From Parvularcula sp. IMCC14364 (GTDB taxonomy: Bacteria > Pseudomonadota > Alphaproteobacteria > Caulobacterales > Parvularculaceae), in assembly GCF_030758415.1 (NCBI RefSeq), contig NZ_CP132334.1:3050001-3114000 (forward strand): a stretch of DNA of 64,000 nt, in the 5' to 3' direction. Shown piece by piece: positions 8,233 to 12,952 of this stretch (the stretch's first letter is position 1; every line of letters begins with the position of its first letter). The position numbers were made by a program, and so were the translations under genes. The notes under the pieces are model-generated. The model was not told the origin of the DNA and did no database searches. It saw only the letters and a list, made by a program, of their open reading frames with translations.

Positions 8233-10353
8233 TCACTTGTGGCTGACGGGGTCCGCATCCCGCAGTCCCCAGAGATGAAGGGCGTATGCGTAAAGATGTG
8301 CACGCTCCTCCAGTTGCTCAAAACGCGCTGCAGACCCGCCATGACCAGCCGACATATTCATCCGGAGCAGGAAAGGTCCACCCGTTGCCTCGTCCCGAAG
8401 ACGCGCAATCCATTTGGCCATTTCCCAATAAGTAACGCGATAATCTGTCAGTCCGCCGGTCGCGAGAATGGGCGGATAGTCGCGGGACTTTTGTATATTC
8501 TCGTAAGGAGAATAGTCCCTAATCCACCTATACCCTTCAGGGTCGTGAATGGGGTCGCCCCATTCTGGCCATTCCGGCGGCGTCAAAGGCAAGCTTTCAT
8601 CAGAAATTGTATTCAGCACATCAACGAATGGAACAGCAGCAAGCACACCAGCAAACAGGTCAGGTCGCAAATTTACTGACGCGCCAACCAGTAATCCGCC
8701 AGCTGATCCGCCATAAGCGACGATGCGGCCCGCAGAGGTATAGTCTTTCTCTACAAGGCTTTCTGCACAGCACACAAAATCTGTGAAACTGTTCATCTTC
8801 TTGCTCAGCTTGCCATCAAGATACCATTGCTGTCCTTTGGCTGAACCACCGCGTATATGGGCAAGCGCGTAAATCGCCCCCCGGTCCACCATGGAAAGCA
8901 CATTGGGGGAGAACCCATCATCAATATATGCGCCGTATGATCCGTACCCATACAGCAGAACAGGGGCAGAGCCATTCAATGGTGTCTCTTTTAGCCGCAA
9001 GGTAACCATCGGAATCCCTGAACCATCCTGCGCAACAGCATCATGGCGCTCGACTACATACAGTTCCGGGTTGTGCCCACTGGGCACTTCGCGTCGTTTA
9101 CGCAAACGGCGCGCACCAGTTTTCATGTCATAATCGATCGTCTCTGTAGGCCGGGACATGCTTTCGTAATAGAACCGAAGCGTATCCGTTTCATACTCAC
9201 GCCCCTGGGAATACCAGACGCTATATGCCGACTCATCAAACGCAATCTCTTCCTCATGCCCGTCATAGTGACCGACCACAATCCGAGGGCGGGCATTTTT
9301 GCGCTCGAGGCGCACCGTATAATCTTTGAAATTCGTGAAATCGCTGATCAACGTACCTGCCTGATAGGGAATAACATCTTCCCAGTTTTCACGCTCTGGC
9401 GCACTGAGCAGCGTACGCATCATCTTGAAATCAACCGCACCATCCCGGTTTGTTCTGATATAGAACCAGTCCTGATAATGATCGATATAATATTCTTCTC
9501 CCTTTTTTCTCGGGGCAAGAACAACCGGCCTTGAAAAGGGCGCATTTGCGGGAATGAAAAGTGTCTCCGTTGTTACCTGGTCTCCAATATGAATGATAAT
9601 ATAGACACCGCTTGTGGTTTTCCCCACACTGAGAAACATACCAGTGTCTGTCTCTTCGTAGACAAGTTCGTCTTCTTGCGGGTGTGTGCCCAAAACATGG
9701 CGCTTAACGCGTCTTGGGCGCTGGTTATCATCCCGTTCAATATAGAAGAAACTGCCTGAATCAGCAGCCCACACAGCCTCGCCATCAGTATTTGCAATCG
9801 GACCGTCAAGAATCTGGTCTGTGTCCGCATCCCTTACTTGCAACGTATAATATTCTGAACCAAGTCGATCAGCGCCGCAGACAATATACCTATGGTTTGG
9901 CGAACTCTCGACACACCCTATCGAAAAGAACTCACTGTCTCCAGCTTCGGCATCGCCATCAAACAGGACCTTCTCAGCGCCACCATCACGATCTGAACGC
10001 ATGTAAACAGGGTAATTGCCCCCCTGTCGAAATTTGGTGTAATAAGCATACGGCCCATCAGGCGTTGGCACCGATGCATCATCCTCCTTAATCCGCCCAC
10101 GCATTTCTGCGACAAGCTGCTGACGAAGCTCCTCAAGGTTACCCGTCATAGATTCATAGTAATTATTCTCCGCCTCCAGGTGCTGATAGATATCTGGCTT
10201 CAGAACCGACGGGTCCCGAAGCACCTCTTGCCAGTTCTCATCTTTCATCCAGGCATAATTATCGATACGCTTCTCACCATGCTGAATAATTTCAACTGGT
10301 TCCTTGCGCGCAGCAGGCGCGTTGATTGGGGAGGATAAATCTGGTTTTTTCAT
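8233..10353 (-). CDS. ptrB: Oligopeptidase B-like S9A serine peptidase
   Basis: The 706-residue protein has no signal peptide and is probably cytoplasmic. The N-terminal propeller (about 60-420) precedes the catalytic alpha/beta-hydrolase domain. Catalytic Ser lies in YGGSAGGLLVGA, Asp in TGGLTDYRV and His in SAGHGGSA. These contexts and the opening phrase RIDNYAWMKDENW match oligopeptidase B, which cleaves short peptides after Lys or Arg. Its 3' end lies nine bases from the convergent TPR gene. Together with the peptidase at 4296 it gives two S9 enzymes within 6 kb, one exported and one internal, fitting sequential peptide breakdown. The exact cleavage preference is inferred from family resemblance. 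Confidence 0.88.
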   Translation of the reverse strand: MKKPDLSSPINAPAARKEPVEIIQHGEKRIDNYAWMKDENWQEVLRDPSVLKPDIYQHLEAENNYYESMTGNLEELRQQLVAEMRGRIKEDDASVPTPDGPYAYYTKFRQGGNYPVYMRSDRDGGAEKVLFDGDAEAGDSEFFSIGCVESSPNHRYIVCGADRLGSEYYTLQVRDADTDQILDGPIANTDGEAVWAADSGSFFYIERDDNQRPRRVKRHVLGTHPQEDELVYEETDTGMFLSVGKTTSGVYIIIHIGDQVTTETLFIPANAPFSRPVVLAPRKKGEEYYIDHYQDWFYIRTNRDGAVDFKMMRTLLSAPERENWEDVIPYQAGTLISDFTNFKDYTVRLERKNARPRIVVGHYDGHEEEIAFDESAYSVWYSQGREYETDTLRFYYESMSRPTETIDYDMKTGARRLRKRREVPSGHNPELYVVERHDAVAQDGSGIPMVTLRLKETPLNGSAPVLLYGYGSYGAYIDDGFSPNVLSMVDRGAIYALAHIRGGSAKGQQWYLDGKLSKKMNSFTDFVCCAESLVEKDYTSAGRIVAYGGSAGGLLVGASVNLRPDLFAGVLAAVPFVDVLNTISDESLPLTPPEWPEWGDPIHDPEGYRWIRDYSPYENIQKSRDYPPILATGGLTDYRVTYWEMAKWIARLRDEATGGPFLLRMNMSAGHGGSAARFEQLEERAHLYAYALHLWGLRDADPVSHK

Positions 10354-10499
10354 CGTCGTGATTGTTCGTGACTGGCTGGAAATTCAACAATAGCAATATC
10401 AGGTCATCTGACCCAGCTCCATGGCAAAATATGATTTCGCCTCTAGCCGCTAATACAGACCATATTCTGCTTTATCGTTTTAAGGTCAAAAAGAAACCA

Positions 10500-10573
10500 T
10501 GGAGCGGGTAACGGGAATCGAACCCGTAACTTAAGCTTGGGAAGCTCGCGTGATACCTTTTCACCATACCCGC
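10500..10573 (-). tRNA. tRNA-Gly (anticodon CCC)
   Basis: A complete 74-base cloverleaf is encoded on the minus strand with CCA in the DNA. The acceptor arm is GCGGGTA/TACCCGC, the D arm GTGA/TCAC, the T arm ACGGG-TTCGATT-CCCGT. The anticodon loop is TTCCCAA, giving CCC, which reads GGG glycine codons. The anticodon stem CGAGC/GCTTA has a G-U pair and an unpaired C-A at position 27-43, which is unusual but tolerable. A T-rich tract follows the CCA end and may serve as terminator. Confidence 0.93.
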
Positions 10574-10585
10574 CCTAGAAGACAA

Positions 10586-10615
10586 CTTATGGGCCTTGAC
10601 GGGCTGATGCGTCAA
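10586..10615 (-). promoter_or_regulatory. Probable tRNA-Gly promoter
   Basis: Reading the minus strand, TTGACG (10615-10610) and CATAAG (10591-10586) are 18 bases apart. They lie just upstream of the tRNA, leaving a leader of about five bases. The -35 matches five of six and the -10 four of six consensus positions. Confidence 0.45.
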
Positions 10616-10757
10616 GAATTCCTGTATTCCGGGATCACGACGAGTTTACCCGGGATAGCGGATACACCGTTTGCAACCGCGCCCGGTTGCTTTAGTCTTT
10701 GCCAACAACAGCGTCCGGCCAGACGGGCGACCAAGGCAGACAAGGCAGGGCAGAGAC

Positions 10758-11690
10758 ATGGCTGACGGGACGGCAATCAACAAATGGAGCGATCCGGATT
10801 TCACGGCTGATGGCACGCGGCGCGCAGCTGTGGGCTTGAAACAGCTTGAGACGCTCTGGTTCAACACCGGAACCTTGTGCAATATCGAATGCGTCAATTG
10901 CTATATTGAAAGCTCGCCAACCAATGACCGACTTGTCTATCTGACGCCGGAAGACGTGGCCCCCTATCTTGCGGAAGCCAGGCAGATGGGGACACAGGAA
11001 ATTGGCTTCACCGGCGGCGAGCCAATGATGAACAAGGATATTATTCGCATCCTTGAAATGACTCTGGAACACGGCTTTCAGACGCTGGTGTTGACCAATG
11101 CAATGAAACCGTTGATGCGCCCACGCGTACAGGAAGGCCTGCTTGACCTGAAAGAGCGCTTTGGCAGTCAGCTGACACTGCGCATCAGCCTCGATCATTA
11201 TTCAAAGGAACTGCACGAGAAAGAGCGTGGCAAAGACACTTATCAACCCGCTCTGGACGGGATGCAGTGGCTGGCAGAGAACGGCTTTACCATGACTGCA
11301 GCGGGGCGCACCTGCTGGGGCGAGGATGAGTCCGAAGCCCGGCAGGGGTATAAAAAGGTGTTCGATTCCATTGGCGTACAGATTGATGTAACTGACCCGG
11401 AAGCGCTTGTCTTGTTTCCAGAAATGAATGATGGGGGAGACCCGCCGGAAATTACTGTAGAATGCTGGGGCATACTGAACAAGAAGCCATCAGACATTAT
11501 GTGTGCAACATCACGCATGGTCGTGCGACACAAAGGGGCCGGACGGGCAGAAGTGCAGGCCTGCACGCTTTTAGCTTATGACCAGCAGTTCAACCTTGGC
11601 GGCTCTCTTGAAGAGGCATCCCAGCCTGTAAAACTGAACCATCCCCATTGCGCAACATTCTGTGTACTGGGCGGCGGCTCTTGCTCCTGA
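10758..11690 (+). CDS. Radical SAM protein of unknown substrate, Cys-rich C-terminus
   Basis: ATG 10758 gives 310 residues. An upstream in-frame TTG would add 29 residues of unconvincing sequence that overlaps the tRNA promoter side. The radical SAM cluster motif is CNIECVNC with cysteines 41, 45 and 48 (CX3CX2C), followed by the SAM-binding GGEP motif (GFTGGEPMM). Further cysteines lie in ECWG, IMCATS, QACTLL, HCATFC and the final GGGSCS, enough to bind one auxiliary iron-sulfur cluster as in SPASM or twitch proteins. The family resembles MoaA/PqqE-like enzymes, but I do not recognise a named member. The gene ends seven bases before a DUF938 methyltransferase start, so the two are almost certainly co-translated. 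Substrate and product are unknown. Confidence 0.85.
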   Translation: MADGTAINKWSDPDFTADGTRRAAVGLKQLETLWFNTGTLCNIECVNCYIESSPTNDRLVYLTPEDVAPYLAEARQMGTQEIGFTGGEPMMNKDIIRILEMTLEHGFQTLVLTNAMKPLMRPRVQEGLLDLKERFGSQLTLRISLDHYSKELHEKERGKDTYQPALDGMQWLAENGFTMTAAGRTCWGEDESEARQGYKKVFDSIGVQIDVTDPEALVLFPEMNDGGDPPEITVECWGILNKKPSDIMCATSRMVVRHKGAGRAEVQACTLLAYDQQFNLGGSLEEASQPVKLNHPHCATFCVLGGGSCS

Positions 11691-11697
11691 CGAATTG

Positions 11698-12375
11698 ATG
11701 GCCGAGGACTATCAGAAAGATCATGCCGGCAAGGAGCTGGCATTGGAAGCGCGGGCAAGCGAAGCCGAGCGCCTCTCATCTCCTTCCGTTGCGCGTAATC
11801 GCGATGCCATTCGTGATGTCTTCTGTGATCACATGCCGGATATGGGCACAGTGCTGGAAATCGGTTCTGGTACCGGCGAACACGCCGTACATATCTCTCG
11901 CAGACTGCCTGACCTTACCTGGACCCCCTCCGACCCTGATGCGGCATCACGGCGCAGTATTATTGCGTGGGCAGATTATTTGAACCTTACCAATGTTCAC
12001 GCGCCCCTTGACCTGGATGTGGCACACGCCGACTGGTTCAAGCGGCCAGACATTCCAACACCACTGATCGGGATGATGTCTGTCAACATGATCCATATTG
12101 CCCCGTTTGAAGCCGCCGAGGGTCTGTTCGCGGGGGCTGGTGCCTTGCTCCAGAAAGAGGGACGATTATTCCTTTATGGTCCTTTCCTGAGGGAGGGAAA
12201 GACGGCACCCTCTAACCACGCATTTGACGAAAGTCTGAGGTCACGGGACCCCCGCTGGGGCGTGCGTGACCTCGACCGGGATATATTGCCGCTAGCGCGC
12301 AGGGCCGGATTGTCCTTGCAAAAAGTCATCCAGATGCCCGCCAACAACCTCGCTGTTATCTTCTCCAGGGAGTGA
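11698..12375 (+). CDS. DUF938 (METTL26-like) SAM-dependent methyltransferase
   Basis: Starting at ATG 11698 the product has 225 residues. Upstream in-frame codons belong to the radical SAM gene. A class I methyltransferase fold is indicated by motif I VLEIGSGTGEHAV, then an acidic loop (PSDPD) and the SVNMIHIAPFEA segment typical of DUF938. The family is also found in animals as METTL26, where its substrate is not established. It follows the radical SAM gene by seven bases, so the pair may act on one substrate, one enzyme by radical chemistry and the other by methyl transfer. That joint role is inference from spacing only. The phrase LYGPFLREG and the C-terminal ANNLAVIF are family features. 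Confidence 0.87.
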   Translation: MAEDYQKDHAGKELALEARASEAERLSSPSVARNRDAIRDVFCDHMPDMGTVLEIGSGTGEHAVHISRRLPDLTWTPSDPDAASRRSIIAWADYLNLTNVHAPLDLDVAHADWFKRPDIPTPLIGMMSVNMIHIAPFEAAEGLFAGAGALLQKEGRLFLYGPFLREGKTAPSNHAFDESLRSRDPRWGVRDLDRDILPLARRAGLSLQKVIQMPANNLAVIFSRE

Positions 12376-12475
12376 TTGCAGTGAAGTCCGTGTTTTGACA
12401 TTCGGTCGGCACGGCCTCAGATTAAGGATATATCGGGGCAAAGGCCGGCAGAATAGTTATTACAGGAGTTTCAAC

Positions 12476-12952
12476 ATGAAAATCAGCTTTCAGATTATGG
12501 CGGGCATTGCAAGTTTAGCCTTGCTAGCTGGCAGCCACAGCATGGCGACGGAACCTGAGGACAGTCCATATAACGCAGATCTTGCAGAAAAATTGGGGGC
12601 GGATGAATATGGGATGCGTTCATATGTGTTCGTCACTTTATTGACTGGCCCAGCCGAGATAACTGACGCAGACGAACGCAACGCGCTGTTTCGGGGGCAC
12701 TTTTCCAATATGGCGAAGTTGGCGGAGGACGGAAAACTGGTTCTGGCGGGTCCCTTCATTGAAGGAGAGCCAAAGCGTGGGCTTTTCATCTTTGATGTCA
12801 AGACGGTTGAAGAAGCTCAGTCACTGGTGGAAACCGATCCTGCTGTGGCGGCAGGCATCTTCAAAGCTGAGTACACGAAGTATTACGGGTCGGCTGCCTT
12901 GAAAATGATCAACGATATTCACGGCACAATTCAGAAAACAAAAATTGAATAA
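12476..12952 (+). CDS. Exported YciI-domain protein
   Basis: ATG 12476 is preceded by CAGGAG seven bases upstream. The 158-residue product begins with a signal peptide (hydrophobic AGIASLALLAGSHSMA). Residues 50-145 form a YCII-like domain with the conserved pattern RGHFSNMAKLAEDGKLVLAG and PFIEG, including the His that forms the His-Asp pair in this family. Export is unusual for YciI proteins, which are mostly cytoplasmic and of unclear enzymatic function. It lies about 100 bases after the DUF938 gene on the same strand and might be a third cistron, but the gap allows its own promoter. Confidence 0.78.
   Translation: MKISFQIMAGIASLALLAGSHSMATEPEDSPYNADLAEKLGADEYGMRSYVFVTLLTGPAEITDADERNALFRGHFSNMAKLAEDGKLVLAGPFIEGEPKRGLFIFDVKTVEEAQSLVETDPAVAAGIFKAEYTKYYGSAALKMINDIHGTIQKTKIE

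Follow-up and report, generated by a model that had tools for sequence, protein, structure and literature searches.

A widespread radical SAM protein family that may stand in for ArsS in arsenosugar synthesis

The window, the whole stretch of 64,000 nucleotides from Parvularcula sp. IMCC14364 that was analysed, encodes a radical SAM protein (P0001) of a widespread uncharacterised family, which probably takes the place of ArsS, the enzyme that couples arsenic with a sugar in arsenosugar synthesis, in adding a 5'-deoxyadenosyl radical to methylated arsenic. Genes of this family are linked to, and co-occur with, other genes of arsenosugar synthesis, their products conserve a set of cysteines, and they share accessory genes with known ArsS clusters. 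What appears to be new here is the enzyme family and its breadth, the type of reaction and the pathway being already known, and no paper on the family was found among the matches listed from the open literature, as judged by title and the start of the abstract. The preliminary description of this DNA had taken the pathway to be undescribed, which is not wholly the case, because the remaining genes of the pathway already bear names from arsenosugar synthesis.

The locus

Open reading frames, Pfam scores and a gap of seven bases between the first two genes bear out the arrangement first described, in which a radical SAM gene is followed by genes for a DUF938 methyltransferase and for an exported YciI protein (Table 1), export being suggested by a start that looks by eye like a signal peptide. 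The YciI gene begins after a further 100 bases, and it also neighbours the P0001 homologue in two close relatives (L002 and L003, or 2 of 37 relatives). Scans of the locus for promoters and terminators gave nothing informative.

Table 1. Features of the locus (positions in the window) and genes of arsenosugar synthesis elsewhere in the same genome (positions on its contig, C1)
Feature	Position	Strand	Extent	Family score or remark
Radical SAM gene (P0001)	10758-11690	+	310 aa; ATG 10758, stop 11690	PF04055, 70.7 bits (cut-off 29.5)
DUF938 (METTL26-type) methyltransferase gene (P0002)	11698-12375	+	225 aa	PF06080, 219.5 bits (gathering cut-off 27)
YciI-domain gene	12476-12952	+	158 aa	PF03795, 34.7 bits (gathering cut-off 24)
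tRNA-Gly (anticodon CCC)	10500-10573	-		Upstream of radical SAM gene; 5' edge of unit
TIGR04283	C1:2740027-2740713			198.9 bits, over cut-off
TIGR04282	C1:2739419-2739982			160.8 bits, over cut-off
MTAP	C1:1459182-1459895			309 bits, over cut-off
ArsM	C1:1292418-1293407			NF008823, 178.8 bits, below cut-off 263

Gene neighbourhoods of P0001 homologues

Stretches around P0001 homologues were compared in 37 relatives (L002-L038, with the fragments L039 and L040 excluded), some of these stretches being short where contigs end. Clustering and family scans identified as recurring neighbours the arsenosugar biosynthesis glycosyltransferases TIGR04283 and TIGR04282 (in 25 and 23 relatives, respectively), an MTAP-type phosphorylase (22), an ArsM-like methyltransferase (11), a low-molecular-weight phosphatase of the arsenate-reductase kind (6) and a PHO4 transporter (5). 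The scanned neighbour glycosyltransferases scored just below their curated cut-offs (158 versus 182 and 121 versus 134 bits), and the scanned examples of ArsM and arsenate reductase were likewise below the cut-offs of their models. At least two of TIGR04283, TIGR04282, MTAP and ArsM were present in the fetched stretch of 25 relatives, and one or more of the pathway genes that were looked for in that of 28; the fetched stretches of the other nine, which include the three relatives closest to the window, contained none, and this counts against the proposed role. A further 36 loci of the class were compared, a non-random 36 of 84 matches that were for the most part the highest-ranking ones, a few others being included for a nearby glycosyltransferase. 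Seven of them likewise had at least two of the four genes. The other way, 28 had no pathway gene beside P0001, often having housekeeping genes there, and this too counts against the proposed role. Such housekeeping neighbours (ApaG, a Cys/Met-metabolism PLP enzyme, TrkH, GTP cyclohydrolase I, Hsp33 and dCTP deaminase) recurred at as many as 21 of 40 loci.

The linkage to the same pathway genes recurs, with differing gene orders, in Alphaproteobacteria, in Gammaproteobacteria-type orders and in Elusimicrobia, as these are labelled in their records. At five loci (L021, L033, L034, L037 and L145) an ArsM gene adjoins the P0001 homologue on the same strand. Eight such ArsM proteins, including that of the window's genome, contain the motifs NC(V)(I/F)NL and CL(G/S/A)GA and a terminal CC, and an annotated cyanobacterial ArsM shows matching cysteines (NCLFNI, CLSGA and CC). 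Cysteines of this kind in ArsM bind arsenic.

Co-occurrence across the class

Among 289 genomes of the class, P0001 was found in 83 (E<=1e-20), TIGR04283 in 106 (E<=1e-30) and TIGR04282 in 104 (E<=1e-20). TIGR04283 was present in 79 of the 83 genomes with P0001 versus 27 of the 206 without it (Fisher P ~6e-42), and TIGR04282 in 78 of 83 versus 26 of 206 (P ~4e-41), neither value being corrected for kinship. ArsS was found in two of the 289 genomes (E<=1e-40), both of which are without P0001, a number too small to show exclusion. Two observations count against the proposed role: 23 genomes contain both glycosyltransferases without P0001, 21 of these being without ArsS as well, and P0001 lies within 10 kb of TIGR04283 in 10 of the 79 genomes that have both, the two being farther apart or on different contigs in the remaining 69. 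These distances use one TIGR04283 place per genome, and second places, examined by eye, add no near case.

The 21 genomes with neither P0001 nor ArsS (e.g., G028, G057 and G107) are drawn from 101 that carry both glycosyltransferases, and loci were fetched for 19 of them (L087-L102 and L104-L106). The glycosyltransferase pair often has an APH-type kinase beside it, at 17 of 23 such loci. Another genome, G095, has two copies of P0001 (C12:111347 and C26:8665), one of which is beside a glycosyltransferase pair whose TIGR04283 protein shares 47% identity with its counterpart in the ArsS cluster of Acinetobacter.

The type of ArsM encoded in the window's genome was found in six of the 289 genomes (E<=1e-50), and all six contain P0001. 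When a wider model of the ArsM family was used (E<=1e-25), 25 of 80 P0001-containing genomes had a match versus 5 of 80 without it (P ~7e-5); several of the 25 matches are partial, covering ~90-110 model positions. The positives in this count are 80 of the 83 genomes with P0001 (G099, G228 and G276 are excluded), and the 80 negatives were hand-picked and include all 23 genomes that have the glycosyltransferase pair without P0001. Among the five genomes that have ArsM without P0001, two (G124 and G208) carry the glycosyltransferase pair, which is a further count against the proposed role.

The arsenic reading is weakest where ArsM is concerned: at E<=1e-25, no ArsM-family protein was found in 55 of the 80 tested genomes with P0001, so that something other than arsenic may at times be the acceptor. 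These genomes may belong to cells that take up methylated arsenic, have a diverged methyltransferase or use another acceptor. It is conceivable, although we regard it as rather unlikely, that the same series of adenosylation, phosphorolysis and glycosyl transfer usually acts on sulfur, selenium, phosphorus or carbon, and on arsenic only where ArsM is present. Clusters from records labelled Rhizobiaceae group (e.g., L007 and L008) and Porticoccaceae (e.g., L018 and L022), in which MTAP and glycosyltransferases are found with no ArsM in the fetched stretch, are consistent with such an acceptor, as is the phosphonate-type ABC transporter of a Roseomonas cluster. However, ArsM is enriched in genomes with P0001 and adjoins its gene at five loci, the window's own genome has an ArsM, related glycosyltransferases serve ArsS, and methylated arsenic could also be imported, all of which argues against a usual acceptor other than arsenic.

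Arsenosugar genes in the genome of the window

The genome that contains the window is a single contig of 3,417,277 bases, with the P0001 gene at C1:3060758. It encodes the core steps of the pathway, but in scattered form, the genes for ArsM, MTAP and the glycosyltransferase pair being far from the radical SAM gene (Table 1). Over 330 aa, its ArsM shares 64% identity with the methyltransferase encoded in the Acinetobacter ArsS cluster, its MTAP may simply be a housekeeping copy, and no ArsS was found in it at E<=1e-40. Near position 2,741,000 of the contig, two adjacent open reading frames (L079:9893-10279 and 10304-11014) look like one interrupted radical SAM gene (CEHGCVYC), relatives of which neighbour 18 of 23 glycosyltransferase-pair loci; one member of this group was checked by Pfam.

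Genes shared with ArsS clusters

Annotated ArsS loci contain differing subsets of TIGR04283, TIGR04282, MTAP, a DUF547 protein, a TVP38/FAD protein, a methyltransferase and a phosphate transporter, and an ArsS cluster on an Acinetobacter plasmid has nearly all of the arsenosugar set, including every one of these seven. On a Roseomonas plasmid, a P0001 homologue that is annotated merely as 'radical SAM protein' has as neighbours TIGR04282, DUF547 and another radical SAM gene, which encodes 459 aa. This second gene is also part of an ArsS cluster in Cupriavidus (L149), where its product is 56% identical, and it is present near ArsS on plasmids of Burkholderia glumae. In addition, the MTAP of an ArsS-containing genome (G014) is 61% identical to the MTAP encoded beside P0001 in L007.

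A tree of 61 TIGR04283 proteins, in which some long branches are unsure, placed ArsS-linked and P0001-linked proteins together in starred clades (L103 with L147, and L150 with L145, L119, L149 and L130). From these mixed clades, it seems that glycosyltransferase lineages have swapped radical SAM partners on more than one occasion. The ArsS-linked proteins required five label changes on the tree, no fewer than shuffled labels did (mean 4.9), while the P0001-linked and the dispersed proteins were each clustered; L039 was grouped with the dispersed proteins, although the cluster of which it is a fragment is a linked one.

The second radical SAM protein (L147:7592-8971 and L149:11461-12729), which recurs beside P0001-type and ArsS genes, is a possible further tailoring enzyme. 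A distant P0001-like frame (~34% identity, in two pieces) that carries no gene annotation is also present on plasmid pHP-187 of Marinobacter adhaerens (L148:8001-8892).

Conserved cysteines and predicted fold

In addition to the radical SAM core motif (CxxxCxxC, here C41-x3-C45-x2-C48), P0001 contains six C-terminal cysteines spaced x12, x19, x28, x3 and x6. Conservation was assessed in an alignment of 84 rows, 83 of them informative (L023, reduced to one residue, is an empty row), from which L028, of over 340 aa, was excluded; a separate alignment (A1) has 35 rows and is without L002, L023 and L026. The three core cysteines together with C236, C249 and C269 are cysteine in all 83 informative rows, and C298, C302 and C309 in 82, the remaining row (L026) being cut short, whereas C186 is cysteine in 21 rows. 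The preliminary description, which called P0001 an uncharacterised radical SAM enzyme with extra cysteines at about 298, 302 and 309, thus had these positions exactly, the extra cysteines are invariant in the alignment, contrary to one of the two outcomes by which that description would have been refuted, and the full C-terminal set is larger by three. SPASM radical SAM proteins have a seven-cysteine motif; P0001 is without it, and no SPASM family was among its Pfam matches at E<=1.

The AlphaFold model of P0001 has a pLDDT of 91.3, with low values at residues 307-310 and with the segment 301-310, which includes C302 and C309, placed at low confidence. The best aligned solved folds are tied, and comprise SuiB (Z 19.9, rmsd 3.2, 236 aligned, model residues 26-300), BlsE (Z 19.5, rmsd 3.7, 244 aligned) and SkfB (Z 19.5, rmsd 9.2, 242 aligned). 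SuiB and SkfB carry auxiliary clusters. ArsS was not among the solved-fold matches listed for the model, which is no evidence either way, and a search of solved structures by sequence returned mostly generic radical SAM matches for P0001 and for an ArsS alike. Because two of the three tied folds are peptide maturases, P0001 might be considered a peptide maturase or another auxiliary-cluster enzyme that is unrelated to arsenosugars and owes its linkages to common descent, but it is hard to reconcile this reading with a linkage to the same genes that recurs in different orders across Alphaproteobacteria, Gammaproteobacteria-type orders and Elusimicrobia, and we consider it improbable.

DUF938 as a neighbour

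The radical SAM and DUF938 genes had been proposed to form a coupled pair whose products modify one molecule. Their seven-base spacing is consistent with this proposal, and so are the presence of DUF938 near the P0001 homologue in three of the 37 relatives (adjoining it in two, L002 and L003, and at a distance of ~430-500 bases in L004) and a mild excess of DUF938 in genomes of the class that contain P0001 (39 of 83 versus 43 of 206). However, the radical SAM proteins of these three relatives are 87-95% identical to that of the window, so that the two genes are near each other in close kin only, none of the 36 further loci of the class has DUF938 near P0001, and 44 of the 83 genomes with P0001 have no DUF938 at E<=1e-20. 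Of the 39 genomes that have both genes, the window's own is the only one to carry them on the same contig no more than 20 kb apart, although broken assemblies could hide neighbours in this count. Adjacency is thus rare, an outcome that the preliminary description had itself named as a refutation of its proposal, the idea of a conserved pair is rejected, and it is very unlikely that the two proteins modify one molecule.

P0002 is a clear member of PF06080, yet the partnership of its gene with the radical SAM gene is not conserved; the DUF938 gene is probably a lineage-specific neighbour, perhaps one that is co-transcribed with the radical SAM gene, and most likely no more than a neighbour. A sequence search of solved structures with DUF938 gave weak matches only (E 0.039 or worse). 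The broader notion of a radical enzyme and a methyltransferase acting on one molecule may still hold, but the likely methyltransferase is the ArsM encoded elsewhere in the genome and not DUF938. Replacement of a missing ArsM by DUF938 is likewise rejected, as the genome of the window has an ArsM.

Proposed pathway and its implications

A review (PMC12159101), which cites Cheng 2021 on ArsS for this point, describes a radical SAM enzyme as adenosylating arsenic in oxo-arsenosugar synthesis. By analogy, we infer the reaction, substrate and order of steps for P0001. In the proposed pathway, ArsM would methylate arsenite, and P0001 would cleave SAM on its CxxxCxxC cluster to yield a 5'-deoxyadenosyl radical that adds to trivalent dimethylarsenic, giving 5'-deoxy-5'-dimethylarsinoyl-adenosine. 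The invariant C-terminal cysteines may hold an auxiliary iron-sulfur cluster, arsenic, or both. The MTAP-type phosphorylase would then take off adenine to leave a ribose 1-phosphate that carries the arsenic, after which the TIGR04282/TIGR04283 pair would pass the sugar on and so finish the arsenosugar, with the DUF938 and YciI proteins as presumed bystanders.

If this proposal is correct, the capacity to form arsenosugars is far more common in the class than counts of ArsS suggest (83 versus 2 of 289 genomes), a further enzyme family forms As-C bonds, and the findings bear on the origin of arsenosugars and arsenolipids. The family also allows one to ask whether species that lack ArsM make another product. 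One speculative extension, to which we give a low probability, is that there is a widespread radical route to sugars that are adenosylated and then phosphorolysed, which would use a non-arsenic acceptor in ArsM-less bacteria and of which ArsS-type synthesis would be one specialised branch.

Comparison with known systems

P0001 resembles ArsS in its CxxxCxxC core, comparable length and several C-terminal cysteines, and its partners come from the same set (TIGR04283, TIGR04282, MTAP, ArsM, PHO4, DUF547 and the TVP38/FAD protein). It differs in that P0001 scores 62.9 bits over residues 28-181 on the ArsS model TIGR04167, far below the curated cut-off of 300, and homology is seen for residues 25-210 alone, where a profile comparison (probability 98.5, E 1.7e-15) detects the radical SAM core that the two have in common. 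The C-terminal layout is HC-x3-C-x6-C in P0001 versus HC-x2-C-x7-C in five of six ArsS rows, the other one being truncated, with the same overall span, and P0001 has an extra invariant cysteine, C236. The C-terminal likeness was dropped as proof of homology, because column-shuffled controls score as high (13.4 for P0001 versus ArsS; maximum 20.3 and mean 11.5 in 100 shuffles). P0001 is therefore not in the ArsS family as modelled, and its ArsS-like role is argued from genomic evidence; in the class, it is also far the commoner of the two.

The best NCBIfam score of P0001 is to the Rv1681 family (NF049973; 96.1 bits over residues 32-208), but this is far below the cut-off of 380, and to our knowledge that family has no known function. 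A third point of reference is the radical SAM enzyme that forms the As-C bond in arsinothricin synthesis, ArsL. Compared by its reaction, as given in the review (PMC12159101), that enzyme also uses radical SAM chemistry to make an As-C bond, but the group that it transfers is 3-amino-3-carboxypropyl, whereas P0001 would transfer the 5'-deoxyadenosyl group.
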